64,000 bases of DNA from Neelides folsomi (Eukaryota > Arthropoda > Collembola > Neelipleona > Neelidae), in NCBI GenBank assembly GCA_034687125.1, contig JAQGBZ010000035.1, positions 248,001 to 312,000 on the forward strand. Reading direction: 5' to 3'. The translations under genes were made by a program, and so were the position numbers. The notes under the pieces were generated by a model. That model worked only from the letters and a program-made list of their open reading frames with translations, was not told where the DNA came from and searched no databases. Position 1 is the first letter of the stretch, and every line of letters begins with the position of its first letter. Positions 3,094-55,482 of this stretch are shown here, piece by piece.

Positions 3094-3287
3094 GGGACAT
3101 GGGAGGTCAGGGGAATGCGCACCAAGCGTTCAACTCCCGCCAACCACCAAAGAAGAAGAGGAAGTCCCGGACGGCCTTCACGAACCACCAAATCTTCGAA
3201 CTCGAGAAACGATTCCTATACCAAAAATATTTGTCGCCGGCGGATCGTGACGATATCGCCCAGCAGTTGGGTCTGACAAACGCACAG
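3094..3287 (+). CDS. lbx: lbx exon with homeodomain residues 1-44
   Basis: Acceptor follows a pyrimidine tract (ctgtttttccag) ending at 3093, and the donor gtgaga starts at 3288. Two bases complete a codon from the missing upstream exon, then 64 codons follow: a linker starting GDMGGQGNAHQ, a basic stretch and homeodomain 1-44 ending LGLTNAQ. Confidence 0.93.
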
Positions 3288-4320
3288 GTGAGAGGAGGAG
3301 ATTTGTTTTGGATTTATGGGCCAAGCGGGGGCATGTTTATTTATAGGGACCATAATTGAGCTACCCGAACAACTCAGCTTCTTTCCCACATCATATAATA
3401 TTTTTCTTTAATATGGAGATGATGGTTGTGGAAAGGGAAGGAGTTTCTTTGAGCAGGGCCGACTCTAATTGCCCTATAATAAGGTGTAGATAAAGGCTGT
3501 CGTGGACAGGATTTTCACAGTAGGTCGATAGCCACATATGTGTAACGAAACTCCACGCATGCCTCCGACTTCTCACACATCTCCCTCCACATATGTGAGA
3601 AGTGATATTGAGGTATAGCTGAATTTATATTTAACTAATCCGCCTCGACCTCCAGTCTAATTTCCCTCATGTTCCCCAAGCTCCTGGCCAACCTTCTTCT
3701 CCGTCCATCCTTAATAGGCTGACCCACGGGGGAAACCAAGTTCCGTAATTGGGATCAAGTCATTCTCCACCTGCTCCTTGTACTAAAAAGCCTACCTTAT
3801 CGCTCCTTTTATAGAACGGCTCTAATGGGCTCCGAAATTATGATGAATTAACGCAACCACCCTTTCGCCCATTCCAAAAGGAGTCGCATAATATCAAATT
3901 ACCTCTCATTGCCCTCGCTCCCACAAAGAAGGCTCACTGTGGGAACTCGCAATTGCCTGCCTACTCGGTTTTAATTGTCCCCGAGCCCCTTCCTCCAGGC
4001 CGTTTAGCATCCAAGTCTAATGACCGATTTTTGCCCAGGTGATAACGTGGTTCCAGAACCGGAGAGCCAAGCTCAAACGGGACATGGAGGAATTGAAGAA
4101 GGACGTGGAGTCGGCCAAGATCCTCTCAGCCCACAAGTCCTTTCTCGAGTCTGCCCACGACCTGGGCCTCCTCAAGAAAAGGGCCCAGAGTCAGATGGAC
4201 ATGAGTTCTGCGGCCGCAGCGGCGGCCGCGGCCTACCACATCTCCTCCCCCGCCTCTTCCTCCCACTCATCTCAGTCCCCCATCAACCTCACGTCGGAAT
4301 CCCCGCCTTCGACTCATTAG
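3094..4320 (+). CDS. lbx: Ladybird/Lbx homeodomain transcription factor, 3' two exons (N-terminus missing)
   Basis: Nuclear homeodomain factor; in flies ladybird genes specify muscle and heart cell identities and in vertebrates Lbx1 acts in migrating muscle precursors and dorsal spinal cord. Two exons are seen, 3094-3287 and 4039-4320, joined by GT-AG sites exactly at homeodomain residues 44/45 (phase 0). They encode about 157 residues ending in TAG at 4318-4320. The homeodomain runs from KRKSRTAFTN through [16 protein letters not shown]47 next to W48 and the FLYQKYLSPADRD block are Lbx-specific. The tail carries EELKKDVESAKILSAHKSFL and DLGLLKK, as in arthropod Ladybird, then an eight-alanine run. 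The first exon begins in phase 1, so at least one upstream coding exon with the eh1 repressor motif must exist; I did not find it in 1-3093. Family call is firm. Confidence 0.95.
3288..4038 (+). other. lbx: lbx homeobox intron (751 bp)
   Basis: Intron at the 44/45 homeodomain position shared by many NK-class genes. It holds two copies of CACATATGTG (3533-3542, 3588-3597) and a 10-bp perfect stem with a 16-base loop (3568-3577 with 3594-3603). No other coding potential was recognised. Confidence 0.85.
4039..4320 (+). CDS. lbx: lbx terminal exon, homeodomain residue 45 to stop
   Basis: Acceptor ttgcccag ends at 4038. The exon reads [20 protein letters not shown] and continues for 93 codons to TAG. 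It includes the Ladybird tail, a polyalanine run and a Ser-rich, proline-containing end. Confidence 0.95.
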   Translation: MITWFQNRRAKLKRDMEELKKDVESAKILSAHKSFLESAHDLGLLKKRAQSQMDMSSAAAAAAAAYHISSPASSSHSSQSPINLTSESPPSTH

Positions 4321-4690
4321 ACACCCCATACTATAAGATGCACCACGCACACGCTCAGCTCCGGCCGGGACCCATCTGCTCCCACTTTGAGACTATATTT
4401 AAACGGATCTTTTTTGCCAAACCACAACATCCTAACAGAGGGATGACCCGCGACCGAGCGACCTGCGACACAACCTCGGAAAAATCCCGCAACTTGGTGG
4501 AACGAATATTTATTTAATGCTATCAATTTACCATAATGTACTCACTCCAACTACACACAAGTATTTTTCTCGTGGTCCCTGGGTTTAGGCCCCAACCAAC
4601 GTGTCGTGCGGAGGTGAACGAAGAGCTGGTGAAGAAAGTATACCAAAACGATAAATTATAAGTACATAAATAAATATCTACTAATTAAGT
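4321..4690 (+). other. lbx 3' untranslated region, probable
   Basis: The DNA turns AT-rich downstream of the lbx stop. An AATAAA at 4669-4674, about 350 bp past the stop, is a plausible polyadenylation signal. The AT-rich stretch continues to about 5.1 kb, so a longer 3' end is possible. Confidence 0.5.
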
Positions 4691-7600
4691 ATTTATATAA
4701 AACAGTTCTTCTGTAAGAGAATAATTGCTAAAATCTAATCTTGTAACTTGTTAGCGAGTATTGAATAATGCAATTTAATGTGTATGTGTAAACTTGAGTA
4801 GGATGGGATCGGTTCCTTTGACTTTAGACTTTTTAATTTGTAATAACCCTCAAGAGACCATGCGGAATGACGAGCCGTTACTCACAGCATATGTGGAGAA
4901 GGTATGTAACTCCGCATATTTTGTATGTGAACCCATGGTCTTATACTTGTCTGTGTAGAGGTATATGGATTTCAAACTGCTCTGCCGTATCAGTATTAAT
5001 GTAGGCTACATACACATGATATTAAATATTTGGTGTAACTTTAATGATACTAAATGCTAATGTATACAAGTTTCCTTTCTCTCATTATGTCGGAGCGGCG
5101 GAGCGGCCGGGCAGTGTGAGGGAGACATTTGAGTTAAGTTATGCGAAGCTTAGGATGACTGTTGAGGAGTTACGAGCTGGTCGTTGTTAATGATAATATA
5201 TTGCCTGGATAGGATATAAGTACCTCTTTAACAATTAAATGACCTCATGTGCTGTTGTTGTTGTGAGATAAGTGGATGTTTAGTGTTAAGCTCTGTGAAA
5301 ATTTCGCCGCCGCTCTGAAAGCGGATCCGACGGAGGACGTGTATCCTTAGGTGTGTGTCCTTTTCCTACGGATGTATACAGATCATCTCTTGAGTGAATG
5401 TGTAGAGCGGGCCAGTTTTGGAGAACTTGTACAGATTTGAATAAATAAGAATTTGAATGGACTCAATCGCGCCGTTCTTCATTAAATGGCTCATTTCTCG
5501 GAGACGGCACATCCGAGGGTGGTGATAATGAGTGGTGGAGAGTGTGAGCAATGGCTCCGCCGTCGCTGGGGCCTTTTTTCTTGGGAAATTTACGGTCGGG
5601 GATGATTAGCGGAGACACGGTTCCTTTCCGAAGGAAAACTCCATAGAAATAAATATAGATTAAAGAATGCGGGTCTTTGTGTGCTCAACATAAATTAACA
5701 AGGATAGATTAACGTGATGGGGACGGGACGCAAATGTTTTCCTTGGCTTACGGAACGAGTCGGGGCCTCGTTCAAGCGCGACCAATTTCCTCCTTGCGGG
5801 CTTTGAGGGGCCGCGCGGGTTCGGGTCGCCCCGAACATCATCACCACCATGTGGAGGGAGAATTGACTCATCTCGCCCATCCTCGATTTGCATAATTCTC
5901 CTCACGCCAATTGGAACCAACAGGTTTTGAAGGGATCTCGTGTGTGGCCCTTATAGAGATGTGAGCGGCGGGCGAGAGGAGAGGAAGGGAAAAAAACCCC
6001 GTGTTTGAGCCCTTTTCCATGTGTGACGCGGCTTCAGAAGCTCCAAGTCGGCTTGCTTTTCCCTGTAATTACCTCTAATCATTTCCCTTCCACAAAGGAA
6101 CGCCGAACCCTCCACCACTTGATACATTAAAAATTCTACCCGCTTCTCAAAATATTTTTTCTCCAAGTGAAAAAGCCATGCAGCCTCTCCCAATTCTCGG
6201 GTAGTTGTGATCTCCACCTAACAGCCTTAAAATCCTTCGCCTCAATCCCACGACGAGTCTCATGGGATTCCACGCAATCTTGTTATTTCATTCCTCGATT
6301 CCAATCTCCTTTGTTGTATTTAACACATCTCCTGTTTAGAAGATTCACAATCAGGGCAACAGGGATGCTTGTTGGGAAGAGACACCTCAAGGAAAAGATG
6401 GATAGAATATCGATGATGTAAAAAGTTTTAACAAGATAATGCATTTATCGAGAGTTAATGGGAATTTCATCGACTCGCATCGCCTCATTTCCGCCTCCAA
6501 TTGCATCCGGTGTTTAGAGGGAGTCAGTTACTGTCACTCACCTCCTGACTTGGTCGGCTGGAAGAGTTTCGACATTTCGCCATCTCGGCCGTGGTGATGA
6601 GGGGAGGTGGCGGAGCTTGGGGAGCCGACAGAGGGAACCGACCGAGAACAGGTGTGTTGAGGGGGTGGCTCGTCGGCAGACCTCAAAGAGCCGAGGTGCG
6701 AATTGTTGTTAGAAGTGTAATCACGCATTGATGGCTCTCTTTTTTCTCCCTTTTTAGCCCTCTCTTCTCTCACCGCCCGCTCTGCCCCTCTCATCCTTCA
6801 CTCTCACCAACTACCTGCTCCAAGGAAAAAATTTCAAATCAATACTAAAGAGATCACCAGATCGGAAATCGCTGTCAAACCGCGATAAGCGAGGAAAAAC
6901 TCGGATCTTTCATCGCCTCCTCGCCCCTCGCTTTCTCTCCATACAAATATAACTAACTATGTCCTAAACCCTAAACTAATGGTATGTATAAGTGAGTATT
7001 GGATCAATCGGTTGAAGGCAGTTGGCGTCCCAAGGGTTTGTCCGCAGATCCTACATAAACTGCATAAATTTCCGTCCAAGTCTCTGAAGACTTTATTCGT
7101 GGACTGGACTTGACAGAGAGGAAATGGTTGCTAATAGATCCGATGTGTCTCAGTATATGAGGAATTTTGAAGGAGGAATTCTCAGATGGTCTAGATACTC
7201 GGATGGTTGTCGGGAGGGGTGGGTAATGAGTGTGTGTTAATGCGGTGAAGAAGTGAGCCCTCGAGCGATGGAGAGCATCCTTTTCAGCTCGGTGAGGAAA
7301 TTAAAGAGCGCTCTCTTAAAGTGAACATCTAACTCCCATTTCACGCGCACCCCCATTTTTTTCTCAATTGATTACGACGAAGCCGCCCTTTTCAAGATGC
7401 CGAAAGGAGGAGAGGAAGGTAGATATGGGACGACGCCACCTCAGCCCCTGCACTACCCCCCTTATGCAAAAGAGGAAGGACGGGAGAGAAATATGATGAA
7501 GTTAATTTGAAAGGTTTTTAGAAAAACAAGTTTGGGTCTCTTCGGCCGAACCGGGCTCTGTGTGAATAGCAGGTGTGAAAACGGACTGGGGGGTCTGCCA

Positions 7601-14225: not shown

Positions 14226-14338
14226 TTATACATTAACATTTTATATTCCTGTCATAATTAAAATTGATCAAAAAGATTAATAGTGAATCATTTAATGAGC
14301 AAAGAAGTAAATTATATTATAAGTTAATTATGAATTAA

Positions 14339-15150
14339 TTAATTTGTAATTAAACGACGCGATACGGCTTTCTTCTGCTTCTTCATCTTAGGAGTGTTTT
14401 CTTGGTCATTAATGGCCATGGGTCTTTTCAAAGCATTTTTTCTCACTGTAACGACAGACTTTTCTTCAGCAATCAAGTTACGAACAGGTGTTTCTGTCAA
14501 AATGGATGTTTCCTTCCCCTTGTGTTGGCCTTTCTTTCTTCAGCTTTAGGAAAAGGAGCGATTGATTGAATGCTCATGGCTGTGGCGATCGAAGCTTATT
14601 CGGGGATAAATTGAATTTGCCTATCTGTTACTAATGAAGGTGCAAAATCAGCATCAGTGAATATGTTGTTGAATGGTTGAATCCCGGTGCAGTTGAATCC
14701 CGCTATTATATTATTCGAAATAGTGGCTTTTTCAAATGGCTCCTTAACAATTTTTGGAAGTTCGTAAATTGTCATAGTTTTCCCTGGGTTGTTTTTCATC
14801 CATTCATCACACGCTGAATTAAAATATTTTTTAAATGGACCGTAGACGGTTCGATCAAGTGATTGAAGTTTGTGTGCGCAGTGTGGTGGAAAGGTCAAAA
14901 GAATAATCTCGTTGGCACGGCAGAAATCAATCACACGGATAGAAATGTGTGATTTGTGATTATCCAGCAAAAGTAAAATTTTTTTTCAATTGACGCTCTT
15001 GTGAGGTTTGCAAAATGCTAAATATATACAGAAATCATCTTGCATCCAGCCCGAACCAGTTCCAATAGATCCGATTGGACTTCCATAAATAAAATGTTCC
15101 TTGAAACGTTTACGGGGGGAAATAAATTGGTCGGAACGCCTTGTAGAAGC
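14339..15150 (-). mobile_element. Tigger/pogo-type (DDE_1) transposase relic, inactivated
   Basis: On the minus strand one frame encodes the C-terminal half of a DDE transposase of the Tigger/pogo/Jerky type. In order it shows an FISPRKRF block, IYGSPIGSIG, SGWMQDD, KILLLLDNHKSHIS (containing a catalytic Asp), LTFPPHCAHKLQSLDRTVYG, GPFKKYFNSACDEWM and AGFNCTGIQPFN, all typical of the family. An in-frame TGA at 14986-14988, a TAA at the end of the main frame (14596-14598) and a one-base frameshift near 14520 show it is dead. After the shift the tail resumes with ETSILTETPVRNLI and a Lys-rich end, to TAA at 14339-14341. The N-terminal DNA-binding half was not found, and element ends were not identified. 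It lies within AT-rich DNA between lbx and bap. Confidence 0.85.
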
Positions 15151-18181: not shown

Positions 18182-18189
18182 TATAAATA
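18182..18189 (+). promoter_or_regulatory. TATA box of bap
   Basis: TATAAATA lies 22 bp before the first in-frame ATG of the gene (18211) and 109 bp before the second (18298). A TATA box normally places transcription start about 25-32 bp downstream, near 18210-18214. This favours the second ATG as the translation start. Confidence 0.6.
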
Positions 18190-18297
18190 CGGGCTTTTGG
18201 ATCCGCACACATGGAACCGAATAGGAGGGGCAAATGCCACACTCACCCGAACATCTACAACTTCTACGGTTCAAACCCTGTGAGGGACTCGGCCGGG

Positions 18298-18496
18298 ATG
18301 TCGACCAAGTCGGAGGATCTCGCCGTTACCCAAACCCCGGCTTTCTCCATTCAGAACATATTGGGGAACAAGAACTATGACGGTGTGTGGACGACGATCC
18401 TCTCCAACAATCAGCCGCCCGACGACCCGCCGACTCCTCCACATTCCCAATGGGACTCACAAGCCCTCGACATGAGGATGAAACAGGAGATTAAAG
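18298..18496 (+). CDS. bap: bap exon 1 with eh1 repressor motif
   Basis: Open from 18211; the start at 18298 is chosen because of the TATA position. The donor gtaatt begins at 18497 and leaves one base (phase 1). The exon encodes FSIQNIL and a Pro/Asp-rich linker ending MRMKQEIK. Confidence 0.85.
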
Positions 18497-20970
18497 GTAA
18501 TTGTAATTCATTTTCATTCCCATTTTAACAAATTTCAAATTAAACGATTAAATGATAATCAATTAAATTAAATAATATATTTACAAATTTGACCTATGGA
18601 TAGAATAATTTTATGATTGACATATTATGAAACTGAGTGAGACATAACATGATTGCGTAATAAACAAATAAATTAGTACCAGTTACCCATTCTTGAACAT
18701 AAAGCTTTTCTTTGCCTTTTATAGACAGTGAAATGAAGCCAAGGAAGAAGAGATCTCGAGCTGCGTTTTCACATGCTCAGGTTCGTTAAGAATCCTTCAT
18801 ATTCTTTTATTCCATAAATATAAATAATTTCAGCTTTAACCAGTCTTTTCACAATTCAGCTTCGAAGCACCTTAAGCCTTAAGTCCTTAAACTATTGTCA
18901 TTTACATATGCTATCTACATATAATGTGTATCTACTTATAATGAGTAAATGAGTATCGCATTATGTTTCTTCAATCTTATCAGCTTTGAATTCAAATGAG
19001 TTTTTATTTATTTGAAGGTCTATGAATTGGAAAGACGTTTCAGCCATCAAAGATATTTATCTGGTCCTGAAAGAGCAGATCTCGCCCAGGCTCTTAAACT
19101 CACAGAAACACAAGTGAGCCTCGTTTCTTTAATTTCTAAACCCACGACTTGCCACTTAATTTTTAAATCTTTTGACTTTCCGTGCCCTCAATATTCATTA
19201 ATGATAAGAAAATTGTGAATATGAGTTTAAAAGTTAGTAAAACTTTGTCTGATTGTGAGAGAAATAAGATAAGATTATGATTATTTATTGAATACAAACT
19301 TCCTTTACATTTTCTCTACTTTCAACGTACTTAAACTTACTGGATTTTCACTATGAAGAAGAAATTCCCTATATACTGTATTCTACCTGTACTCTAGAAT
19401 TGATTTAAACTCAAGTCGTTTTATTTTTCGACTTTTATATCAGCCAGCCAGCCATAAAGTACTTTATCGTATTGAAGAATTTGAAGAGTGGATAGTAAGC
19501 ATGAATACCCCACTTGTAAGTGTATAAGTACTCTATATACCTTGAATTGCAGACATAATATGTAATAATGTAAATATGTAAGGTAGTTATTTATATAATG
19601 TATGTATATATGTAATAGGTACATATGTACATAATATGTATAGTATTTACATTTACATATTGCTTATAATTATATAACTTATTTTATAACTATTTACTAT
19701 TAGTTCATTGGTGGTGTGAAGCATGTTCCACACATTTTCATTTTATTTCAATCAGATTGTTATCTATATAGGCATTTGATATTTTGCATCTTCAAAGATA
19801 GCATGGAGTGGGGATGCGAATGTTATTTAGATCCTCGAGAGTTGTAGTTATTTCCAACTGTGGGTATATTGAAGGGCGGATCTCCTGGTAAGGTAGTTAG
19901 TCGTTTCTCACTCATCCCTAACTCTCCATTTCATGTCATTGCATTGAGTGGGGCGTTGGGAAGCATTATGGGTGTGATGTGGATGAGAGCCATTTGGATC
20001 CCGAGAGTTCATCTTGAGATTTCTCGATTCCTCACCCAACGCTTGCTTTGGTGTGTAGACATATGCACTTCTTTAATCACCACATGCCACTCAGAAGCAC
20101 TCTCAATTTCTATCAGTTTCCCACCACCACCCTCCTAATAAATATGAAGAGGTGATAAATATAAAAAATCCCACCAGCACCCAAACTTCCATTTTTAGTA
20201 ATATTATTATTGAATTCTCCATATTTCCATATACTTATACTATATAATATCCCCCACACTTGTTTCTACTATCATATCATTGGATTAAACGAGTATAAAA
20301 AAATTTCTATACTTTTCAAAATCAATTCTACAAATAATTGTTGGTGAGAAACTACATATATGAAAAATACGTTAAATCGTAAGTTGTTATATTCAAGGAC
20401 GTATTGTAGTTTGTAGTACAACGATATTTTGTCATTTCCCTTCTCTTGGGCCTATGCTATAAATACATACATATGTATGTATCCTATACATAGGTATAAA
20501 TTAAGATATCCGTAAATACTACACTTCCCACTTTTTAAGTTTAAATTCAACAGGGTGGAATTTTCTTATCATAATTTGTATTATCTACCAAATCACAATG
20601 ATGATTTTTATTATTTTAGGTCAAAATTTGGTTTCAAAACCGCAGGTACAAAACAAAACGGAAGTTGCAGCAGGACATGAGTTCTCCTTGTCAAATTCCT
20701 CAGGCGAGAAAAGTTGCCATCAAAGTCCTCATGAAAGATGACAAGGTGAGGAATTTATAGTATTCTCATAAATTACTTTAATTACCCTTTGGGTCTCTTA
20801 AGGTAATTTATGACCGAGAGGAAGTGAAGCCTTATTTGAATCCAACGAATCTTCTGTTTAATTCCTTCTATTCTTACTACTGTTGGCCTTTCTACCCTCC
20901 AAAGCCGCTGATGAATCCTCCGCCGGATGGAGAACCTTTGAGTCCAAGTCCTTTCAATTTCAAGAGATAA
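18298..20970 (+). CDS. bap: Bagpipe/NK3 (Nkx3-type) homeodomain transcription factor, complete
   Basis: Nuclear homeodomain factor; fly bagpipe specifies visceral mesoderm and vertebrate Nkx3-2 acts in axial skeleton and gut mesoderm. Five exons: 18298-18496, 18725-18780, 19018-19113, 20620-20745 and 20803-20970 (214 residues). Intron phases are 1, 0, 0, 0 and every junction keeps the frame. Residues 14-22 hold an eh1 motif (PAFSIQNIL). The homeodomain spans residues 74-133, from [12 protein letters not shown] to [12 protein letters not shown]. Residues 146-159 ([14 protein letters not shown]) match the conserved NK3 block after the homeodomain, and the tail is rich in Tyr, Trp and Pro ([13 protein letters not shown]), as in Nkx3-2. 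An upstream in-frame ATG at 18211 would add 29 residues but sits at the expected cap site. Exon 1 uses GC-ending codons while exons 2-5 are AT-rich. NK3 identity is very secure. Confidence 0.96.
18725..18780 (+). CDS. bap: bap exon 2, 56-nt micro-exon with homeodomain residues 1-12
   Basis: Acceptor ccttttatag ends at 18724 and donor gttcgt starts at 18781. It encodes [19 protein letters not shown], the NK3 homeodomain N-terminal arm. Confidence 0.92.
19018..19113 (+). CDS. bap: bap exon 3, homeodomain residues 13-44
   Basis: Acceptor tttgaag ends at 19017 and donor gtgagc starts at 19114. Exactly 32 codons run from VYELERRF to LKLTETQ, covering helices 1 and 2. Confidence 0.95.
19114..20619 (+). 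other. bap: bap intron 3 (1506 bp, homeodomain 44/45)
   Basis: Very AT-rich apart from a GC-richer island at about 19795-20110. The island has no splice-supported frame and could be a conserved regulatory element or an insertion. Confidence 0.7.
20620..20745 (+). CDS. bap: bap exon 4, recognition helix and NK3 block
   Basis: Acceptor ttattttag ends at 20619 and donor gtgagg starts at 20746. It encodes [15 protein letters not shown] and the downstream [14 protein letters not shown]. The following intron is only 57 bp. Confidence 0.95.
20803..20970 (+). CDS. bap: bap exon 5, C-terminal tail
   Basis: Acceptor gtctcttaag ends at 20802. The exon has 55 codons with the Tyr/Trp/Pro-rich NK3 tail and stops at TAA 20968-20970. 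Confidence 0.92.
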   Translation, partial: VIYDREEVKPYLNPTNLLFNSFYSYYCWPFYPPKPLMNPPPDGEPLSPSPFNFKR

Positions 20971-25571: not shown

Positions 25572-25859
25572 TTATTGAAGAGAAAACTGTGCTGTAATTG
25601 ATTTGGGAGTGAGATGATTGGAATGAATGATTCCAAAGGCCGGCTGTTGTTCGAACCCCTCACGGGCGGAGTGAAAGACGGGTTCCGTCCGCGACCCGCC
25701 CGGGAGACTCGAGCTCTTCTTTGACTTGTAACGGCGATTCTGGTACCATATCTTGACTTGATTCGGAGTTAGTTTTAGGGACCGGGCAAGGATGTCTCGT
25801 TCCGTGGCAGAGAGATAGCGTTGCTGTTTGAATCTCCGCTCCAACTCGAACACTTGGCT
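25572..25859 (-). CDS. tin: tin terminal exon, homeodomain residues 11-60 and tail
   Basis: The acceptor (coding strand ttgactatttag) ends at 25860. The 95 codons start [10 protein letters not shown] and end with stop TAA. The recognition helix reads [14 protein letters not shown]. Confidence 0.92.
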
Positions 25860-27078
25860 CTAAATAGTCAAAGGAATAGATTTGATTCACTCGCACTAGA
25901 TAGCGTCCGTTCTCCCACGTCCCCTTCGCGCTGCATGAGGCGAGAGGGAGAGAAAAGCCCAAAGCCTCTGCACCCAAATAACAAATCTTCAAAAGGAACG
26001 ATGGATTTGTAAATTATCAATAAAGACATTCAATTGAAGAAATGAACCTCCAAATAAATTGAATGCATCAGCCCATTTTCCTACTCACTTTTGTATGATT
26101 AATGATAATGACTGCATTGACAAGGACGTATTGGTAATTCACTTTCACTTAAAGCTAAAGATGGATATTCAGATGATACTCCGAGGCTCTATAGAACATG
26201 GGTGATAAAAATTATTTATAATAATGCATAGTCCGAATTACCTAACAGATGTGTGTAGTTAAGTATTTATACTTATGTACTTATTGGAACTACTCTCAAT
26301 TTTGCATTAAATTGTAATATATAAATGTTTTCGCTTCGGTTTCAGTATCAATCCAATATATCTTTCCACTCATTTGATCGTGTTGATTGTGATGCGTAGC
26401 TGTAGTTTTACAATTTTCGTTTTTAGCCTCACCGAGGAAGTTTGTGGGAAAAGTGCGGAGTTTTAATAGGGATTTGTATAATCAAGTGCGGAGAGAAAGG
26501 AGGTTTAATCAGTGAATGGATGCGTAAGGAAGGAGTATGAGGTAATGAGGGAGGAATAAGATATTAATTTATCAGATGAGAGATGAAGATGGAGATGGGG
26601 ATAGGGATAATAAGGAAGGTGTGTTGTTGGTAGGAGATTGATGGACTCAGGTCGTCCTGCTCCAGGACCACAACGCTGCTACCACACAAGGAGGAGAGAT
26701 GCGATGATTGAATAAATAATTGATGATGTAGGTGGGTTGCCTTATAAAGCAGAGGAGTCGAACGACGACAATTACGAGCTTCTGGGAGACTGAGCTGATT
26801 GAGAGGGAGAAATATCGTCTCCGCAATCAGAAATCATTCACTCGGGTATAAATTCCCCCATCTGAAGGGGAACATAAATCAGGGATGCTCAAAGGGTGTT
26901 CTTTTAATCTCAATCTACATTTTTTCCCTGGAGGACGGGAGCTGGTGGTTACCTGAGAAAACAAGATGCGAGGCTTTCTTTTGGGTCGACGAGTCGATGA
27001 AGAGGAAACGTCCGGTCGCTTGGGTCCGCTCTCCCCAATCATCTTCTCACAGCTCTCCCAACTCTTCACACCTTCTTC
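25572..27078 (-). CDS. tin: Tinman/NK4 homeodomain transcription factor, homeobox exons (5' part incomplete)
   Basis: NK2-class homeodomain factor; fly tinman and vertebrate Nkx2-5 specify heart and dorsal mesoderm. Two firm exons on the minus strand, 26953-27078 and 25572-25859, are joined in phase 0 after homeodomain residue 10. The homeodomain begins [10 protein letters not shown], continues [20 protein letters not shown] and ends NRRYKSKK; Tyr54 is the NK2-class hallmark. Residue 49 is Tyr instead of the nearly invariant Phe (WYQNRR, codon 25743-25745). A short 45-residue tail follows to TAA at 25572-25574. NK4 is preferred over NK2.1/2.2 because the neighbour is bap, tin's partner in the ancestral cluster, and no NK2-specific domain is visible. 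Two phase-compatible candidate upstream exons are listed separately. The N-terminal TN/eh1 motif was not found. Confidence 0.85.
25860..26952 (-). other. tin: tin homeobox intron (1093 bp, after homeodomain residue 10)
   Basis: Contains TCAAGTG (26482-26488), an NK2/Tin-like core. No other coding sequence recognised. Confidence 0.75.
26953..27078 (-). CDS. tin: tin exon with homeodomain residues 1-10
   Basis: The donor (coding strand CAG|gtaacc) begins at 26952. The acceptor gtttgtgatag ends at 27079, inside an in-frame TAG, so the exon must start close to here. It has 42 codons starting [10 protein letters not shown], then a Ser/Arg-rich linker and [10 protein letters not shown]. Confidence 0.8.
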
Positions 27079-34222: not shown

Positions 34223-34396
34223 TCAATGGTGGGCGAAGAGCTGAGAGTTTTGGATGAGGTTGTTAAAGTTGGCGGCCGCCGCTGCGGCTGCGAACGCTGC
34301 CGCCAGATGTGGCCTCGTCGCCATTTTTAGTTTCTCCAGCTCGGCCTCTTGGAGTCGCTTCGCCTTTGCTCTCCGGTTCTGGAACCAAATCTTCAC
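34223..34396 (-). CDS. msx: Msx-a terminal exon, homeodomain residue 45 to stop
   Basis: The acceptor on the coding strand ends ttag at 34397. The 57 codons start [20 protein letters not shown], include an [11 protein letters not shown] run and end at TGA (34223-34225). Confidence 0.95.
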
Positions 34397-36561
34397 CTAA
34401 TTGAGCAAATGTACATAAACGGTTAAACATCCAATAGATAAGGTTGTGTAAATATTTAACTTCTTATGTAAGTAACCTTCCCCAACTTGTTCGTCTATCT
34501 CTACGTGCTTTAGCTCCTGGTTCGAGAAGCTGTGTGAGCTTTAATGATGATGATTATGAAGGAATTTAATGTCCATAGAGCACACGTGAGAATTCCTTCA
34601 ATTCCACACATGAGATCTTTTATCTCCCTTTTGATTGTGCTCTTTCACAGTTTCGCATTTGGTTTAAAGGAGGATTCAACCATTGGCTCTTCCCACACTT
34701 GTTAGTCCATTCTGTAAAAACACGCGTGTTTGTCTCCGTGTGTGTGTTCTCATATTTGCATGTGGGGAGTTTAATAATGGGGAGAGCAGTTAAAAGATTG
34801 AATGAGCTACACCTTCTTTCCATTCTCATAACGATCGTCGAGTGAGCGGAATTGGATAATCAGCGTAAAATAATTTTCTTAATGAGCTTCGCCTTTTAAT
34901 AAATTCTGAACGTTTGTTTGATTATCAAGTGGATTGGAGGAGCGAGGAATTAGAGGGCGGGAACGTTCATTAAAAATATAAATCCAATTGGACCCTCTGC
35001 TCATTAAAATTAAATTTGGAGCCGTTTAACCACAATGTATCATGCTGACGGAGGATAATGGGACTTGTTAATTACATGTGGGTTTTAATGAGAGGCCCTC
35101 GTAAAAGCTCCCTCATTAACTAACCATCTTCAATCAATCTCTCCAATTATGGTCAAGGAACCTCCAGAGAGCCCTGCTATCAAATACACTCATCTCCCTT
35201 TGATCCTTTATTTCAATTGTGCCCAAATGCCCATCCCCTCACATCGCCTCACAAGGCGTCCACATCGCAAGGAACGAGTATTTTATCAAACAACAAAATG
35301 ATAAAACTTCTTCCAAATGACCTACGATATCTCAATGAATGAAGACAATAAACAAGGGATAATCAGCAAATGCTTTGTAATTAATTTCCACTTATGAGAC
35401 ATTCTCCTCTTAAACTCCTCGTCCATCTTTCATTCAATCTCCCGGATTAACGAACAATTAATGTTTCTATTTCACTTGAAATGGACGTCCTCTACATTTC
35501 CCTAATGACTATCAACATGGAAATACTGCATGAGATACCTAAATACAATGCACGCAAGTTTAACCTATGAGGGGATAATTGTTTTTGCTCAAAAGGCCTA
35601 TCGGGGATAGTAAATTAGGATTTATAGGTAATTTAAATATTAACCTGGGTCTCGGTGAGGTTGAGAGAGGATGAGAATTCGGCTCTTTCGGCTATTGAGA
35701 GATATTGCTTCTCCCGGAACTTTTTCTCTAAGGCGACGAGTTGTTGGGTAGTGAAGGGCGTCCGGGGCTTCCGATTCGGCTTATGCTTCCTCAGAGTGCA
35801 TTTCATGGGCGTTGGGTGTTTCATGGGTCCTGGAGAGTTGGAGATCGGACCTACAAAACCCACTTCATTAAAACATGGTGATTAACAAGAGACTTTTATG
35901 ACCGTTCGAGTCAAATGAGATAAACTCGTATAACATATTGGAGATGATAAGAAATACATGAAGACGGTATTATAATCTATTAAATACATGCTGACGAACA
36001 TGAGGACTGTAGCTGGATTGAAACGTAAAAATTTTGGGTTGCATTTAATATCATGTTTAAAATGTTAAGATAGAGTTTCTACTTAAATGTGTGGCAGAGT
36101 TCACAATAATTACGAGATGGCCTCTCATCTCTTATCAAGGAATTAATTGCTCAAGAGTGCTTCCTTGCTAATTTGTCTCTGGGCTGAGTATGATAGTAAT
36201 TGAGTAATTGAAGTGGGTTCTTACTTGGTGTGAGGTCGATGGGTGAAGGGAACTTCATCCCGGCCCAGGAGTGGATGGCGGCGGGATGCGGGAAGGGCAG
36301 GCCGTGCATGAGGATGTTGCCCGGGTAGCCGAAGGGGTATCCGGGAAACATGGGGCTGTTCGGGAGGGCCATGGGCTTGAGGATGGCAGACGAGGGGCTC
36401 GGCGGCGTGGCCGGCGGGGACAACTCGTTGAACTCATGGAGGTCTTTGGGGGCCAGGAGGGAATCGACGGTGAACAGGGACGACTTCGGCTTGGCTTCCG
36501 GACTTTTGGTCATCTTGGCCGGGGAGAGACGGGACGAGAGGAGTTTGAGGTCGGAGAGCAT
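34223..36561 (-). CDS. msx: Msx (Drop/msh) homeodomain transcription factor, first copy (Msx-a)
   Basis: Msx-class homeodomain repressor; fly Drop/msh patterns dorsal neuroectoderm and muscle. Three exons on the minus strand, 36225-36561, 35645-35850 and 34223-34396, with introns in phases 1 and 0, give 238 residues. Residues 30-36 form an eh1-like motif (FTVDSLL). The Msx signature [18 protein letters not shown] leads into a homeodomain at residues 138-197 ([38 protein letters not shown]). The C-terminus is short, with an alanine run, and ends NSQLFAHH. The chosen ATG (36559-36561) is the first clear Met, but the frame stays open upstream, so a 5' exon or earlier start is possible. It lies divergently from a second Msx gene 13 kb away. 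Family identity is certain; which copy keeps the ancestral role cannot be told. Confidence 0.93.
34397..35644 (-). other. msx: Msx-a intron 2 (1248 bp, homeodomain 44/45)
   Basis: Moderate GC with scattered TTAAT words and a TCAAGTGG near 34925. No coding sequence recognised. Confidence 0.8.
35645..35850 (-). CDS. msx: Msx-a exon 2, Msx signature and homeodomain residues 1-44
   Basis: Acceptor ggttttgtag ends at 35851 and the donor gttaat starts at 35644. Two bases then 68 codons cover [19 protein letters not shown] and the homeodomain to NLTETQ. Confidence 0.95.
36225..36561 (-). CDS. msx: Msx-a exon 1 with eh1-like motif
   Basis: Coding-strand donor CCAA|gtaagaa begins at 36224 (phase 1). 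It encodes [13 protein letters not shown], a Pro/Ser-rich stretch and a segment rich in Pro, Phe, Gly and His (GYPFGYPGN). A possible acceptor (cccttgcag) lies on the coding strand near 36618, so the true 5' end may differ. Confidence 0.85.
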
Positions 36562-39500
36562 TGGGAGAGATGTAGACTGAGGAGAGCCTCGGCGACGAGT
36601 GCAAGGGACTGCAAGGGTGAGAGGAGAAGAGCCTGCGACGAAGATGCGAGAGCTCCTCCCTAATTTTCGGCAGCCCCACGGTGACTCCCTGCCTCACCTA
36701 CCCTCCACATCCCCACAATGGCCCTTCCAAATTTCCATCCATCCCAACAATTACAAGAATTCGAACCTCTCAATGAACTCGGAGTCAATTATTGTTGGGA
36801 AAGAGATGGTCCTGGGATGGGCACAATTGGAGGACGAAGGGGAAGGAGGAGAAAATCTCCTTTGTCCGCTTCCCCACATAAATCACGGACACTTTTTCAC
36901 ACAACTGGGAAATAATTGTTGGGTTTGTCTCCCTGAGTCCGAGCTTTTTTCTTCACCCGTCCCTCCTTGACAAATTGTAAGAAACTCAAATCGCAGTCAC
37001 CACCAACACAAATTTTTACCTTCGCTCCTTGCCGTTATGGTAAAAGGTTCTGCGACCCATCCAACAACCCGGAATTCACCCAACACGGCCCTTCCAATTA
37101 AATCCCAACCTTCCCGATCCTCCTCGGTTTCTCAAGGATTGAAATCAATTAGGTCTCATGACTCCGCTTCTCCATTATGCAATGCACGCCAAGAGGCCGT
37201 CGCTCATTAATACTTACATACACGTTCAAGAATTCCATTTGCTGATGAAGTGATGAATATACACATCATACATCCCTTATCTGTCTCTCAATCATCAAAC
37301 GACGGGCTAAGGAGTTTTGGCTAGATAAACCCCATTTCGGTTTATTAACACCCTTCACGCCATTCCACCAAATCAAATGTCAAATAATAAAGAGACACCC
37401 TGTTTCCTTCCATACATCTTTCACATCAAGAATTTTTAGCCTTCATATGTGAGCTACTTTGTAAAAAAACAAAGAAAGCATTTTAATTATTATTCCGCTT
37501 ACCCATTCTTTGTTTATTTGTAAATATATAATTTGAGCTCAATATGGGCTAAGCAATAAAATGAATTTGTCTTTTAAGCTCCACTCTGATGTTACAAATA
37601 GAGCATAAGCCTGAATGACGGCGCCTACAAGATAATCCCATACAAACCCTAGAATACGTAAATACGAGTACATCAATACATAATATCAATGGTAAGTAAT
37701 TACATAAGCTTAGGATATCATTTTCAAAGTTTTAAATGTATGTATACTCTAAGCGCAAGCGTTAAACAAGAACTTGATTGTATTATTCTATTTATTACAA
37801 TTACAAGCATTGAATTTATTAACAATTTTCCAAACTGGCTTATATTATTATTAAATAATTTATTATTTAAATCTGAAAATACTCCTTTTAAATGGACTTG
37901 GAAGAACGGGGGGAATAATTAAAATTGACCAGGATCGTAATATATTTATTGACACGGAGCCTGAAACGGATATATGTTGAGTCGTAAAGGATATATTTAC
38001 CGGATCGTGTGAGGAGTCGTATAGATTAAAGACGTCGCCAAATGGTTTTAAGGGTCTAAAAGGGCTTTTGCCCTCGATTCTGCCATTGGCGACGAGAGCT
38101 GTGGACTCGAGGTCTCGCCTCGGACATTAGGCCCATTGTTTCAAGGAGCAATAAAGGGCCGGAGGGTCGAAGAGACAATTAGGAATTAGAGATCGTCTGT
38201 GTGAATGGTCTTCTGTTGTGGTCGTCGGCCCCTTGTGACGGCGACTCCTCGACCCTTGTAAACCTATTTCAAGTCCTTCGAGGAAACTCTCCGTCAGACT
38301 CGGATCAATTTTTGGGCGACAAATCGCTCTGCAGAAAATTGCCTCTGGATTTTTGACATGGAGACGGGCGTCTTTGACGGCTTCGACTCGTTGCATTTTG
38401 CTCCACCACTTTTACGCCACAGCTTTCACGACCTACAACACATTCGACTCTTGGCGTCGACCCACATCGCCTTTGTCCTTTTTGCGGAAATTGGTCTTTG
38501 AGTTGGCATTTCGCAGAGCACCTCCAATTAAACCTCCTATCACACGATTATTACCATTCTTAATAACTTTCCACAATTAAAAACGGTCTTCGCAATTATC
38601 CTAAACGTCGACTCACTCCCACGTCCTATCTCCATTGCATGATTGTTCCCGACGACATAATATGTAATTATAATTAAGCCGGTAATAAAAATATGGGAAA
38701 ATTAAGGTCGCCAGCTCATGAACACATGACTTTTTATTCCCTCGCCCATTGAAATAAACATTTATGCGCTCGACGAGGTTTCTTAATTAACTCCCTTGTC
38801 TTCAAAACCCAGGATCCATGTAGGCGAGTGAAACCTCGAAATTAACACGTTCTTGCCCATATCAATTATTCTATTAATTTTCAATCGTTTCCTCGTATAA
38901 TAATTTATTCAAATTAATCAACGTTTAAGAACTCCCTCGTGGTGATTAAATTGGGACTGGGAGATATTAACTATTTTTGTGAATCCACATGGCCCGTTGC
39001 GGTGCAATAAATATGACGGAGAACGCGTGTTGAGATAGTCCGGGCTCACGGCTCCGTTCGGCTATCTATTGTGAGGGAGTTTCCCGAGCGCCGTCCGGGA
39101 AATGGGATCATTCAAACGAGGGCTATACAAATATTATTCATTAAAGATGATGTCGTCGGAATGAATTTGGATGAGTGGGCGATTAATGGAAGGGAGGGTG
39201 CGTAATCTGTGGAAAGGGCATTTGTCAATTACGGCCATATTATTACATTATGGAAGCGGAGAGGGAGCATATGCGGCTCATCATAACTCATGGGCCTAAG
39301 GAGGATTGATACGAGGGCGAGGGAGTCGAAAGTCTCCCGTCCCGATTCCCTCCCGATAATGCCCATTCAATTCCGCTGCCTGAGTATTAGGTGTATAAAA
39401 AGGGTGATTTATGAGGACCAACCGTATCGGATCGACTTTGGGTACAAGGGGTTATGGATTCATTCAATCACTTGGTCCCTTTGTCTCCCAGGGCCCCAAT

Positions 39501-48500: not shown

Positions 48501-49590
48501 GGTTGCTTTTGGACTTCCACGGTGGCATCCGATTTTCTTGAGCACATTGCAAAAGCCAATGTGGGTATGGAGGCTGTAATTAAATGCAGTGGGTCAGGTG
48601 GGATTATGACGCAGGTCTCGAATGTTAATTGTGATTGACAATGCTGAGTTCACACCTTAGAGTTAGAGGGGAGAATGTAGGGCGGTTGATGGGGCAGATT
48701 GAATGGTGCAGAAGTTGAGCGACGTGTTCGTCTGATGTGATTTGTGTGAGAAATGACGAGGAGTTTGGAGATGGTAATCTCCTAGCCTTGCAAATTACTC
48801 TCCGCTCACCGGACCATGAATCATTATTACCTGCCTCTCCACCACTCCGAGCGCGAGATTAAATCAATCAATTTGGTAATGAGATACAAATCGAGTTAAA
48901 CGGTCTCCCGCATTTACAAATGTCTCGAGGTAGAGAAGTGTGGGCGACTCGTACCCTGGGCCAACGACGCAAGTCCCGAGTGTTGGGCAATTGATCCGGA
49001 GTGTTTTCCTCCCAAATAGCCAAGAATCTCTTTATTCCGGCCCTGTGAGATCCAGGCCGGTGTTCCGAGGCGCTCACAATGGTTTTCGCGTCCCTTGGTC
49101 CTCCAGGGATTTGAATAAGACAGGGCGGAGTCGAGCGAGAGGAGGGCCAGCTCATTATTGAGTATTTTTTACAGTCCCATTGTATGGAGAGAGGGGCGAG
49201 CAATTGACTCCTCATCTCTCTCTAAATGCTCATCTTCCTCGTGGGGTGAAGAGTGAAAAAATCGGAGAGGAGCTGGATGGGTTCGGAGCCCCTCGTTGGG
49301 CCTATTGGAGCGGAGGAAGGCGAAACGGGCGGAGAACTCGTTTCCAGGCGGAGCTCTCCACTGGGAGTGAAACAAACCCTGGATCCACTTTTAGTTCGAG
49401 CCTCGTCGATCTCACCCGTCCAATTCCCCTTGAGAATGGTGAGGACGACGAGTTGCCCCTCACCCTCCTCGATCTCTGCGAATCGAGGGAGATTCGCGTA
49501 GTTGGGAACTGTGGGCCAGTCCTCCCTTGCTTCCCGACCCAGTTGGACGGGGAAGGCAACACACACCCCGTCGAAATGTGATTCCTCCCC
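36562..49590. other. 13-kb gene-free interval between the divergent Msx genes
   Basis: Presumed shared upstream regulatory DNA of the two Msx genes. Mostly moderate GC with small AT-rich patches (37.4-37.95, 40.5-40.85 kb). A TATAAAAA near 39393 is not followed by a recognisable gene. Frames up to about 158 codons occur but show no family motif. Confidence 0.5.
46165..46184. repeat. (TG)n microsatellite
   Basis: Ten GT units in an uninterrupted run. Confidence 0.85.
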
Positions 49591-49871
49591 ATGACCAAAA
49601 CGTTCAGCTCCCTTCCCACTCCAATGAAAATGTCCGACTCGGAGTCGAAGGTGGGGCGGGAAGAGATCGAGGAGGAGGACGCCTACGTGTCCTCCGAAGA
49701 CCTCGAGGAGGACGAGGACGACGAGCCCCTTGAAGACCCCAAAGACACTCAAATCCTCCCCGGTTCCCTGCAGAACAAGAAGACTGAGAAGAAACTCTCT
49801 TTCAGCGTCGCTTCCCTCCTGGGGAAGGACGACAAGGACAGTGATGACCCCGGGCCGAGGAACTGCTACTC
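49591..49871 (+). CDS. msx: Msx-b exon 1, acidic region and eh1 motif
   Basis: Begins [20 protein letters not shown], includes runs of Glu and Asp, then [15 protein letters not shown]. The donor gtaagt at 49872 leaves two bases (phase 2). Confidence 0.9.
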
Positions 49872-52800
49872 GTAAGTCAATTCATTACTTCTTCCGCGTC
49901 CTTCATAGCCCTCCTATTTAAATCCCAAATGACCAGTTTTTCAATCCGTGAAGGCTAAATTGGAACGGAGTCATGTGATTGGGAACGTTGGATCCCGGAA
50001 GAAGAAATTCCTCCTCTTTAATTACCAATTCCAAGATCGATTAAATGAATTGAGTGGGAATTTAATGTCTCTTTTCGGATTACCCTCATTACTGTCATTT
50101 GAAAAGAAAACGAGTTTTTCTCACACTCTTCCAGCCACTTCATTATGAAGACGTATTTAGGCACAAAGGGCATTTTGAGTGGAAGAATGGGGGTTCCTTC
50201 CTTCCCACTCCACCTGAAGGGCTCAAAGGGAGATAATGCCATCATAGGAGATCACACGTGGATTTAGTGTCAGAGTAGTTTCGTTGCGTAAGAATAAGGC
50301 TGGTGAGAATGTTATTTAAGGGTCTGCTCTCAAAGGAGAATGAAGTCAAATGAAGTGAGCCAGGGTTCATTTCATGGATTGAAGTCTCCGTCTCGGTCGA
50401 GGGGACCTCACTTACAAAGACCCACATATATTTCGCGTCGGTCTCACTCGAAAAGTCATTTTCGACATGAAAAGACGATTGAGGTTGACATGGAGCTGAG
50501 CTGACGGGATTGGAAAATCACTTCAAAGCCTCACCTTCACGACATTTGTTCGCATTATTCCGAGAGACATTTAAGTAACTGAGAAGGCCCCTGAGGACTT
50601 TCCTATATCGACCATAGCTCCCATTGTGGCCCTGTAGGTGCATAGGGAAAGGTGTATTTATTTACATTCCCAACTTCCCTATGCCCTTCACATAGGGATG
50701 AATTCTTTTCCCACCCATGTCCTCGCATCTTTCTCATATGCATTGATGACTGGTTACACATGTGGGGACACCCACTCCCGGAATCGGAATGAATTTCCCC
50801 TCAACAATGGCCGTTATTTATACGCGCCGACTATCGCCGTTCCACCCGACTCTTCTGAGGATTGGGCCCAGGGGAGGAACAATATAAAATATAATATCGA
50901 TTGGCCCTCTCCCTGCCACTCTCTTCCTATATGGAGAGAGCACATAGGAGGCCTCATTGATTTTCCCCCTCTCCTGGGTAGGTGTAATGAGTTAAAGGAG
51001 CCGCAATCCGCTCCTTCACATTCCCCTATTCACCAGATGCTTATGGGACAATTAATATGAGGCATATGGATATAGGTCTGGAAAGTGATCCCTCCTAATA
51101 GCCCTCAAAGGATATGAATAGACCTCTTGAATAAATAGTCGCTCCGGAGGGATGATGAGGGGAATAAATCATGGGGGAATCCGACCCACACATAAATAAA
51201 TAGGAAAATGAGCATACGTGTGGTGCGGAATTTAATATTCATATCATGGCTCATTTAATAAGGAGATACATAAATGTAAACTTATTAGACCCTAATACAA
51301 TCTAGTTGTAGTAAATAAAGGGGAAAACGAGTTTAGTAGGAAGGATAAGCTAAATATTTAATTTGTTTTCCAAAGGAGTAATTAGAGGCTCCTCAGCTTT
51401 CTATTTAAATTACATATCGGCTCTTCATTTCTTATTTGTCGTCTCCTCAACGAGGTTCGTTTATCCTCGAGCGAATAAGCAAATCAGGGTAATTCCTATA
51501 CTCATGTCCTCTTTATCGTAAAAACGCGAATCCATCATCGTAATAAACTCATTCAATTCCAAACTTCAACCACAACATTCCACCTATATTGGAAATATTA
51601 TGTAAGGATAGGCTTCTACAATGTGTATGCTCATATGTTCTTCCTATGACTTTATTAAAATATGGCACAATTAAGTATACCCGGAACTTATCGCATTACA
51701 GTTATTAGATACAAGATTCTACCTAGTATCTGTTTATAAGTTTACATTATTAAAACTTGGACAATTGCACGCGTTATCTTCATTATTTATCATAGATAGT
51801 TATACTATATTATAACTATAATAGCATATTTAACAGTATATGAAATATTTATGATATACATACTAATATGTAATATATATTTAAATACACTTTTATACTA
51901 CATAATACAGGTATATGGTATATTTACTTATGTTCAGTGTACGTAAGTATTACTCTAGGTAGGTATTACTCAATAATACATAAGTATATTTATACTCTAA
52001 ATATATTTATACTAAAATGTGAGCTATGCAAATAATAAATCATTGGGAGATATTTGAGGAAAATATATGGGAAAATAGTGTAAGAATTTTCCGAGAAGTT
52101 GAAGATGATTTGAAGAGGATAATTGTCCCTTGGTTTTATATCGTAGGTATCTTTTCTCTCGGAAGGGAGAAGTGTAAAAGTACGCACGTGCCAAAATGGT
52201 TTCCTCTTCTTCCCCCAACAACCCTCATTATCTCTTCATCTCTCATCTCATAGTGAGGATTAAGATGTTCGAACATTGGATTTAATATACTTGATTCCTA
52301 TCAACGTCCATTAAAAACTATTCAACGAAGGTAAACGAATCCACGACCCGTCTCACATGCCCAATAGCTCTGACTCCCAATCAAGTTTTCCCCTGTTTTT
52401 CCATGCGAGCAACGTTTTCACACAAGGGAAACCCTACAGAATAACTATATTGAGCGCTTACCACTCCACCATGTTAATGAGCTGTTGGAACGCTTTTGTC
52501 AAACCCAGTGAATGGCGGGAGAAAGCAAACACTTTCGTGGATGCGCGCCCTTTCCAAGATCAAATTTAATGAAATATTATTCCGATTACTATTCTAGATC
52601 TCTCTGTTATAGACACGAGGAGAAATTGCTCGCGGCGGTGCGACGAGCCAACTCGGCCTTTAGTTCCATGTCCGGGACTCCGGACCACAGCCCCACGTCT
52701 TCTCGGTCCTACTCGTCCCCGATGTCGCCGCTGACTCCATCCTGGGCGCTGCCGCTCCTCAGCTGGGGCTATTCCTCATCCCCTGGAAGTGAGTCAACTT

Positions 52801-55482
52801 ATCTCTCCATCAGTCAATTGAAAGATCCTATCGCCCGACTCCCTTCGCTTCCCATTTTTCACCACTTTCCCTCTTCGGTCTCGGGGCTGGGTGGGGCGGA
52901 GGTGAGTGATCATGAGGAGGATCGACTCAGGCACTTGGGGATTAATTGCCCTATGACAGAGGAACATCCGGTGTGCGAGGATCGTAGCTGGTCCCGCGGA
53001 AATTAGAACATTAAATAATAAGAGGATAATAATTGTTCATAAGAGGAGAAAAAGGGTCCGTGTGTAGTGGAGTAAATGGAATACAAATGGGTCATTATAC
53101 GATGATGATAAGCGGGGGGCGACTTTCATTAGCTTGCGTGTGAGGAACTTCAAATGAGGTTCGAAGGGGGAAGAGGCGAAAGGAAAAATGGCGTGAATAA
53201 TTTTTGACAGGATGAAAGTAAAATGAGCATGACAGGATTGAGTCAGTGAGTGAGTTCCTATGAGCTTCAACTGCCCATTGTTGATTGTCTCGCGAGGTTC
53301 GTCGTCTTAATTGGCTGATGGACGGTGTGAAGTCGGAATCGGTCCGTCGTCATGCAACACCCATTTTCCCTCAGAATGTGGCTCGAGATTTGAAAAAGAC
53401 CTTAGACGGCCCTGATGAGCTCCGCAGGAATGTAGAGGGGTTTGGGAATGCCATGACCCGAACTCTCTCAATTAAAGGAGGCTCCGACGGAAGACTGAGA
53501 GACCGTTTACACATTCAATGCAATCAAACCGGCCCCTCCTTCCCCTCACGCAATGCAATTGATAATGTACTGAGTTTTTTTTAATTACCGGCTCTCATTT
53601 TGACTCGGCGGAATGAATTAGCGGGGAAATCGGGCGGGAAGAGTTGAAGGAACGAGGTTTCTTCCTTCACAAGGGGGGGGGGGTGACTGATTGGGCAATA
53701 ACGCCCCTCTTCCAAGAGGGTCACCTTTGTGGTCCCTTTGGGAATGCCGTGACCCCAACTCTCTCAATTAAAGAGACTTCGACGGAAGACTGAGAGACCG
53801 TTTACACATTCAATGCAATCAAATCGGCCCCTCCTTCCCCTCACGCAATTCAATTGACAATGCACAAAGTTTTTTAATTACCGGCTCTCTTTTTGACTCG
53901 ACGGAATGAATTAGCGGGAGAATCGGGCTGGATATGAGAGACGAGATTCCTCCTCTACAAGAGGGGCGGGGGTGACTGATTGGGCAATAACGGCCACTCC
54001 CCGCCAAGACTGTCACCTTCGTGGACCCTTTAAAATGACCATTCATATGGTGTCACTAAGAGGTCAATTTGACTCCTTTATCCTGTTTCAGAAGGCATCC
54101 TTCCTCCAAGGCTCCCAGGCCCACCCGTTCGCTGCCAGCTCCGGAAACACAAGCCAAACCGAAAGCCCCGGACGCCCTTCACCACACAACAACTCCTGGC
54201 GCTCGAAAAGAAGTTCCGAGAAAAACAGTATTTGTCAATCGCAGAGCGAGCCGAATTCTCCTCCTCGCTCAACCTCACCGAAACTCAGGTACTTTCAAAC
54301 GTCGCTGCTTTTGGGAAGCTTAGAAGCTTAATTGCGGTTAGGGGTGAGAGGATGAAGATAGGGCCACTCAATGTCAGGGTTTCACGGCAGAGGCCTTGGG
54401 CCTTTGGGTCCGAGATGTGGCGATATTTATCCCCGTGTAGATCCGACGTGACGGATCAATTATGTTGACAGATCTTGAGTAATATTGTAGTAGAAGGGAG
54501 TTTGGTGAGGGCGAGGTAGGAGGCTTGTTCTTGGTAGTCACCCTGTCTGACCTCTCCACCGATGAAGTTTTCGTTCCTCGGTGTCAGGGGATCCGTCGGC
54601 TCCTGCCGCTGGCCATCATCGCACACATCTCCATTCTCTTCTTATCATCCCATCCCTTCCCATTCATCACGACGAGAGGGCTGGAAGTTCTATGACTTCG
54701 TCTCACAAATCACGGGACCTCCGCCAATTAATTCATATGCCAAATTTCTCCCCTCTCCCACATCCAACCAAACAATGGAGATCGATCAAGGGAAACAAAT
54801 AATGTGGAAGATGAATTAAAACGGTTCATTCCCTTGTGGAATGAACGTTGTTCATTTCCTCACCCATCCTCTTTGGTTGAAAATGAAATGGGGGCTCATA
54901 TGAAAATAAATAGTCTGTAAACATATCTCCTCGGGAGTCGTTTAATCTGAAGTAGGGAATGACTGAGGAGAATAAATTGGGAATCTCCTCCCCATTATTA
55001 ATTGGGTGGGATAGGCGGAGTGCACAGTGGCACTCGTGGTGTCCAACATTTTTGTCCCACCGTTCCCCTTAATTGGATTTTTTCCCTGGGAGACCAATTT
55101 GCTTCGTTAAGTGGGAAGGCCCAATTAAACGAAGAGGCGAGATTGTATAGCTCGTAGAGAAGATGAAGAGATGCAATCAGGGGAGACGTAAATGAGGAGT
55201 TATGGGCTCCTTCATTTGGCTCCTGCACCAACTCTCAGTTCTAATGGCCTTCCTTTTTCACAGGTCAAAATCTGGTTTCAAAACCGCCGCGCGAAGGCGA
55301 AGCGTCTTCAGGAAGCAGAGATTGAAAAGTTGCGGTTGGCGGCGGCGCGGCCGCTTTTGCCGCCTTCCCTCGGCGGCCTCCTCCCGCCGCCGCTGATGGG
55401 CCATCAGTCGCTCCTGGCACGATCGGCCCATCTCAATGCCGCCTTCAGCCTCAACTCCCTCCTCAACCCCAACAAGATGTAA
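49591..55482 (+). CDS. msx: Msx (Drop/msh) homeodomain transcription factor, second copy (Msx-b)
   Basis: Four exons, 49591-49871, 52613-52788, 54092-54288 and 55264-55482, with introns in phases 2, 1 and 0, give 290 residues. An in-frame TGA at 49579-49581 and the first ATG at 49591 set the start. Residues 24-50 are strongly acidic, and residues 71-77 are an eh1 motif (FSVASLL). Exon 2 is Ser/Pro-rich. The Msx signature [18 protein letters not shown] leads into a homeodomain at residues 175-234, differing from Msx-a at one of 60 positions (Leu14 here, Val14 there). The tail is longer than in Msx-a, with a Leu/Pro-rich segment and ending [10 protein letters not shown]. The phase-1 intron before the homeodomain exon and the phase-0 intron at 44/45 are shared with Msx-a; the phase-2 intron is extra. 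Msx identity is certain; the exon 2 assignment rests on exact phase fit at both ends. Confidence 0.94.
49872..52612 (+). other. msx: Msx-b intron 1 (2741 bp)
   Basis: GC-moderate up to about 51.2 kb, then AT-rich to about 52.3 kb. A GGACAATTG word lies near 51760. Contained frames (up to 140 codons) show no family similarity. Confidence 0.7.
52613..52788 (+). CDS. msx: Msx-b exon 2, Ser/Pro-rich linker
   Basis: Acceptor ctctctgttatag ends at 52612 and donor gtgagt starts at 52789. One base, 58 codons and one base fit phases 2 and 1 exactly. It reads [16 protein letters not shown], then a Ser/Thr/Pro-rich stretch ending WGYSSSPG. Confidence 0.85.
52789..54091 (+). other. msx: Msx-b intron 2 (1303 bp) with internal tandem duplication
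   Basis: Nearly half of the intron is the two-unit 296-bp duplication listed separately. It includes an 11-base G run at 53673-53683. No coding sequence recognised. Confidence 0.8.
53441..54032 (+). repeat. 296-bp tandem duplication (two units) in Msx-b intron 2
   Basis: Unit 1 is 53441-53736 and unit 2 is 53737-54032. Long stretches match at a fixed offset of 296, for example GGAAGACTGAGAGACCGTTT, CGGCCCCTCCTTCCCCTCAC and GTGACTGATTGGGCAATAAC. Differences are mostly single bases; roughly 85% identity by eye. Confidence 0.93.
54092..54288 (+). CDS. msx: Msx-b exon 3, Msx signature and homeodomain residues 1-44
   Basis: Acceptor cctgtttcag ends at 54091 and donor gtactt starts at 54289. Two bases then 65 codons read [19 protein letters not shown] and the homeodomain through NLTETQ. 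Confidence 0.96.
54289..55263 (+). other. msx: Msx-b intron 3 (975 bp, homeodomain 44/45)
   Basis: Moderate GC, nothing recognised. Confidence 0.8.
55264..55482 (+). CDS. msx: Msx-b terminal exon, homeodomain residue 45 to stop
   Basis: Acceptor ctttttcacag ends at 55263. The 72 codons start [20 protein letters not shown] and end LNPNKM, with TAA at 55480-55482. Confidence 0.96.

Follow-up and report, generated by a model that had tools for sequence, protein, structure and literature searches.

The DNA analysed here, called the window below, is a stretch of 64,000 bases (positions 248001-312000) of contig C35, which is 323,659 bases long and belongs to an assembly of 75.1 Mb in 840 contigs. 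It carries five homeobox genes within 52 kb, arranged as lbx(+) bap(+) tin(-) msx-a(-) msx-b(+). These genes, their order and their orientations had been proposed in a preliminary description of the window and were borne out by a whole-genome Homeodomain search (E of 0.001; 93 exon-level matches across the assembly) together with reading of the sequence; 87 of the 93 matches were read, the other six lying on C576, C11, C31 and C333, at C49:100437, and as one of two on C441. The limits first given for the cluster also coincide with gene features, position 3094 being the splice acceptor of the lbx homeodomain exon and position 55482 the end of the msx-b frame with its stop codon. For lbx, bap and msx-a a second homeodomain exon was detected by motif, and the one in msx-a was recovered again in the msx search. 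A Tlx/C15 homeodomain, the sixth gene, lies on the same contig at C35:220791-220958(+), 27 kb left of the window and 30 kb from lbx; beyond Tlx and the window genes, the whole-genome search at this threshold gave no further homeodomain matches on C35. In window coordinates, the parts of the five genes are the following.

3094..3287, + strand: lbx (ladybird) exon coding for the first three quarters of the homeodomain (Homeodomain search, splice acceptor, homeodomain comparison)
4039..4320, + strand: last exon of lbx, with the remaining homeodomain, the C-terminus and the stop (motif, sequence reading)
18187..18528, + strand: bap/NK3 open frame with the TN-like motif FSIQNIL (pattern; exon ends approximate)
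18745..18780, + strand: start of the bap/NK3 homeodomain (12 residues) before a GT donor (sequence reading; the exon begins further upstream)
19018..19113, + strand: middle homeodomain exon of bap/NK3 (Homeodomain search, GT/AG)
20620..20738, + strand: last homeodomain exon of bap/NK3 (motif, GT/AG)
25572..25859, - strand: tin/NK4 exon coding for most of the homeodomain, together with the C-terminus and the stop (Homeodomain search, PDB match)
26953..27078, - strand: tin/NK4 exon with the homeodomain start RKPRILFSQ (pattern, GT/AG; outer end approximate)
34223..34396, - strand: last exon of msx-a with the stop (motif, GT/AG, msx comparison)
35645..35790, - strand: msx-a homeodomain exon, conserved part (Homeodomain search, GT/AG; outer end approximate)
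36151..36693, - strand: msx-a open frame, candidate first exon with the eh1-like motif FTVDSLL (pattern; ends approximate)
49582..49875, + strand: msx-b open frame, candidate first exon with the eh1-like motif FSVASLL (pattern; ends approximate)
54073..54288, + strand: msx-b homeodomain exon (Homeodomain search, GT/AG; outer end approximate)
55264..55482, + strand: last exon of msx-b with the stop (Homeodomain search, sequence reading)

The best PDB matches of bap, tin and msx-a are Nkx-3.1, Nkx-2.5 and Msx-1, respectively. Compared with a reference set of 11 homeodomains entered by hand, lbx is identical to Lbx at 56/59 residues, bap to NK3 at 50/59, tin to NK4 at 45/59, msx-a and msx-b to Msx at 54/59 and 55/59, and Tlx to Tlx at 53/57. 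The introns that split the homeodomains of lbx, bap, tin, msx-a and msx-b all start with GT and end with AG. By their sequence, the genes encode homeodomain transcription factors. Pattern searches revealed short TN-type or eh1-type motifs in bap and in both msx genes, which suggest a role in repression for these three proteins. The homeodomain of tin carries WYQNRR in its recognition helix (window 25572-25859, - strand); NK4 proteins have WFQNRR at this point, and the tyrosine would be a change in the recognition helix.

With Tlx included, the genes follow one another over 82 kb between C35:220791 and 303305 in the order Tlx-Lbx-NK3-NK4-Msx of the published five-gene core of the NK cluster, on strands + + + - - + for Tlx, lbx, bap, tin, msx-a and msx-b. 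All five core families (Msx, NK4, NK3, Lbx, Tlx) are thus represented, Lbx and Tlx being typed only against the hand-entered sequences. A simple Poisson calculation that assumes 75 homeobox loci in 75.1 Mb gives a chance expectation of about 0.00002 clusters of such density.

The assembly holds two msx genes, both in the window, and the next match is at most 60 percent identical. Over the homeobox region, msx-a and msx-b agree at 73 of 78 residues, yet of the 78 third codon positions 44 are different, as are 17 of the 30 fourfold sites; in a blastn comparison of their surroundings, similarity was confined to the two homeobox exons. For each copy there is also a separate candidate first exon, with an eh1-like motif of its own. 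Because of this divergence at third and fourfold positions and the restriction of the blastn similarity to the homeobox exons, the two copies are not alleles; they are old duplicates and no echo of the assembly. They stand side by side on opposite strands, as in the inverted pair of Danaus; a local duplication in inverted orientation would be enough to produce them, with no separate inversion. Msx is among the most frequently duplicated NK genes, and the msx duplicate of Tribolium is regarded as specific to its lineage within Mandibulata (PMC13088399). One might tentatively suppose that the inverted msx pair beside tin goes back to a single duplication common to this genome, the beetle and the butterfly. 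That duplication would then predate Pancrustacea or date from early in its history, and Drosophila, with Drop as its one msx gene, would have lost a copy secondarily; we regard this as less likely than not.

The preliminary description had suggested looking along an extended contig for C15/Tlx, slouch/NK1 and other NK genes. Tlx/C15 lies on C35, slouch/NK1 on C3, and NK7 and NK6 on C49. The latter two are neighbours about 29 kb apart (C49:105636 and 134787) on a contig other than that of the core. The NK7/NK6 pair and NK1 are on contigs separate from the core, to which they may yet be linked over more than the length of a contig. Emx was assigned to C416 and two NK2-type genes to C63 and C407, these non-core NK genes and the Hox genes being named by eye from translated homeodomains. 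NK5/Hmx was not found in the assembly, where a hand-entered Hmx homeodomain used as query best matched NK1, at 60 percent identity. Eight Hox genes (Ubx, Antp, ftz, Scr, Dfd, Hox3, pb and lab) share one strand along about 285 kb of C20, with abd-A and Abd-B on C93. The homeobox gene set is that of an arthropod. To the eye, the homeodomains of Hox3 and ftz seem closer to crustacean ones than to winged-insect ones.

The mitochondrial contig C742 reads trnI, -trnQ, trnM, nad2, trnW, -trnC, -trnY, cox1, trnL(UAA), cox2, trnK, trnD, atp8, atp6, its protein genes, except cox1, being named by eye. The position of trnL(UUR) between cox1 and cox2 is a mark of Pancrustacea, and the whole order from trnI to atp6 is what we take to be the pancrustacean ground plan. 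The host is an arthropod and, by its mitochondrial gene order, probably of pancrustacean affinity.

The preliminary description had recognised no other host gene between the members of the cluster, and this statement stands within the limits of a Pfam scan of single open frames. All 205 open reading frames (ORFs) of at least 72 amino acids in the window were scanned, and none gave a convincing match to a host protein family other than homeobox; Homeodomain was matched by seven of them and DDE_1 by one. Weak matches to EST1, HSD3, NleG and DUF7645 (one ORF each; E 0.0008 to 0.006) compare with about two matches at 0.01 predicted by chance alone among 205 ORFs; all four came from a first set of 150 ORFs, and the other 55 gave none. 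EST1 was rejected as an extra gene, as the match falls on the last lbx exon (C35:252030-252347) under the family cut-off, and HSD3, NleG and DUF7645 (E 0.003 to 0.006) were taken as chance. Searches of the window yielded neither an Rfam family at gathering score nor, with ARAGORN, a tRNA. The DDE_1 match, presumably to a pogo/Tigger-like family, marks the one further feature, which lies outside the membership of the cluster.

14596..14985, - strand: remnant of a DDE_1 transposase, situated between lbx and bap (Pfam)

In the flanks (C35:218001-248000 and 312001-323659), 73 ORFs of at least 80 amino acids were scanned in the same manner, and no convincing host family other than homeobox was found among them. 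Three matched a DDE_Tnp_1_7 transposase, which is of piggyBac type, and one each Homeodomain, Homez and Homeobox_KN; a weak Sec3 match falls on a transposase ORF. Pieces of the DDE_Tnp_1_7 transposase lie right of the cluster at C35:318377-319517 (-).

We are highly confident that this region represents the ancestral NK cluster core, a long-known set of linked regulators of development, with the order Tlx-Lbx-NK3-NK4-Msx and a local inverted duplicate of msx, in the genome of an arthropod that is probably pancrustacean. There is agreement that the bilaterian ancestor had the order Msx-NK4-NK3-Lbx-Tlx (PMC13088399; also PMC8767184). The preliminary description was right to see an older linkage of msx with tin, bap and lbx here, which matches this reconstructed order and was already known (PMC13088399; PMC8767184). 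The genes have stayed together by descent from the ancestral cluster, msx being kept in place here and located elsewhere in Drosophila. Shared enhancers are the accepted reason for NK clustering (PMC13088399), and, judging from this literature, enhancers shared or interdigitated between neighbouring genes most likely hold the cluster together and account for its retention here as well. Several points weigh against the identification of the region as the ancestral core. Pattern searches found neither an upstream first exon of lbx nor a TN motif in tin; orthology was judged from homeodomain similarity, partly to hand-entered sequences; the genes are known from their sequence and their linkage from the assembly; and Pfam applied to single frames misses short exons, genes devoid of known domains and non-coding genes.

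An artefact of assembly, in which a false join had created the linkage or an uncollapsed haplotype the second msx copy, appears very improbable to us. C35 does end 20 kb past msx-b, which could be read in its favour, but the 175,659 joined bases of the contig contain no N, the silent-site divergence of the msx copies and the confinement of their similarity to the homeobox exons speak against a haplotype, and an accidental false join is very unlikely to have restored a published order. We give equally little credence to the idea that the genes were dispersed and secondarily reunited. Such a reunion of NK genes within Drosophila was reportedly described by Chan et al. in 2015, and the location of NK7-NK6, NK1 and the core on separate contigs implies that a larger cluster has been broken or at least spread; five families standing in the exact ancestral order (PMC13088399) nevertheless need no such event.

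A different question is raised by the strands within the cluster, whose core we continue to regard as retained from the ancestor. The preliminary description took the mixed orientations to imply that an otherwise intact cluster had undergone inversions, and the strands + + + - - + are indeed what speaks for it. We consider such inversions in this lineage rather unlikely and the claim unsupported: the ancestral NK genes need not have occupied one strand, the ancestral strand of each gene is not stated in those parts of the publications that were consulted, and a simpler origin is at hand for the msx pair, since an inverted local duplication suffices for it and such a pair occurs in Danaus (PMC8767184).

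With this region the complete five-gene core becomes known from one more arthropod, probably a pancrustacean and one with a small genome, which offers a further point of comparison; the accepted picture of NK clustering is unchanged. When fly and beetle are compared, an enhancer active in the heart is reported to have switched its target between ladybird and C15 by inversion (PMC13088399). An additional genome in which Tlx and lbx are neighbours on the same strand could help to decide which state is the older.

In the tinman complex of Drosophila, tin, bap, ladybird and C15 lie together and the Msx gene, Drop, is apart. The fly also has slouch after C15 (PMC13088399); here NK1 is on C3. Comparison of gene order with other arthropods and their kin places the present core beside those of Tribolium, the millipede Trigoniulus and the onychophoran Epiperipatus, for which the order Msx-NK4-NK3-Lbx-Tlx is reported: the same five families stand in the same order, and in Tribolium msx is likewise present in two copies (PMC13088399). 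Several species have NK7 after Tlx (PMC13088399), whereas in this assembly both NK7 and NK6 lie away from the core, on C49. In Danaus plexippus, Dr, tin, bap and lb lie within about 206 kb, Dr is locally duplicated with its copies inverted, and NK6 and NK7 are together elsewhere (PMC8767184). The likeness to the present genome thus extends from the linkage of msx with tin, bap and lb to the inverted msx duplicate and the separate NK6-NK7 pair; the butterfly differs in that its Tlx/C15 does not adjoin lbx and its four linked families take up about 206 kb (PMC8767184), whereas here Tlx is next to lbx and the distance from lbx to msx-b is 52 kb.

Spider clusters A and B also have Msx1, NK4, NK3, Tlx and Lbx together, as here; they differ in that the cluster was doubled by whole-genome duplication (PMC10726417) and in the swap of Lbx and Tlx described for many chelicerates (PMC13088399), which does not occur in the present genome, where Tlx is the outer gene. 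Because the NK genes of a tardigrade are dispersed (PMC6050708), a centipede keeps only NK gene pairs (PMC4244043) and the cluster of a sea spider is fragmented (PMC12220506), the core is not universal among arthropods and their kin. No published description of an NK cluster in copepods was found in a literature poor in subscription journals; for branchiopods, PMC13088399 and PMC10809584 came up. Set against these known systems, the window adds one more case of an arrangement that has been described before, and it shares its gene order with the beetle, the millipede and the onychophoran and its inverted msx pair with the butterfly.

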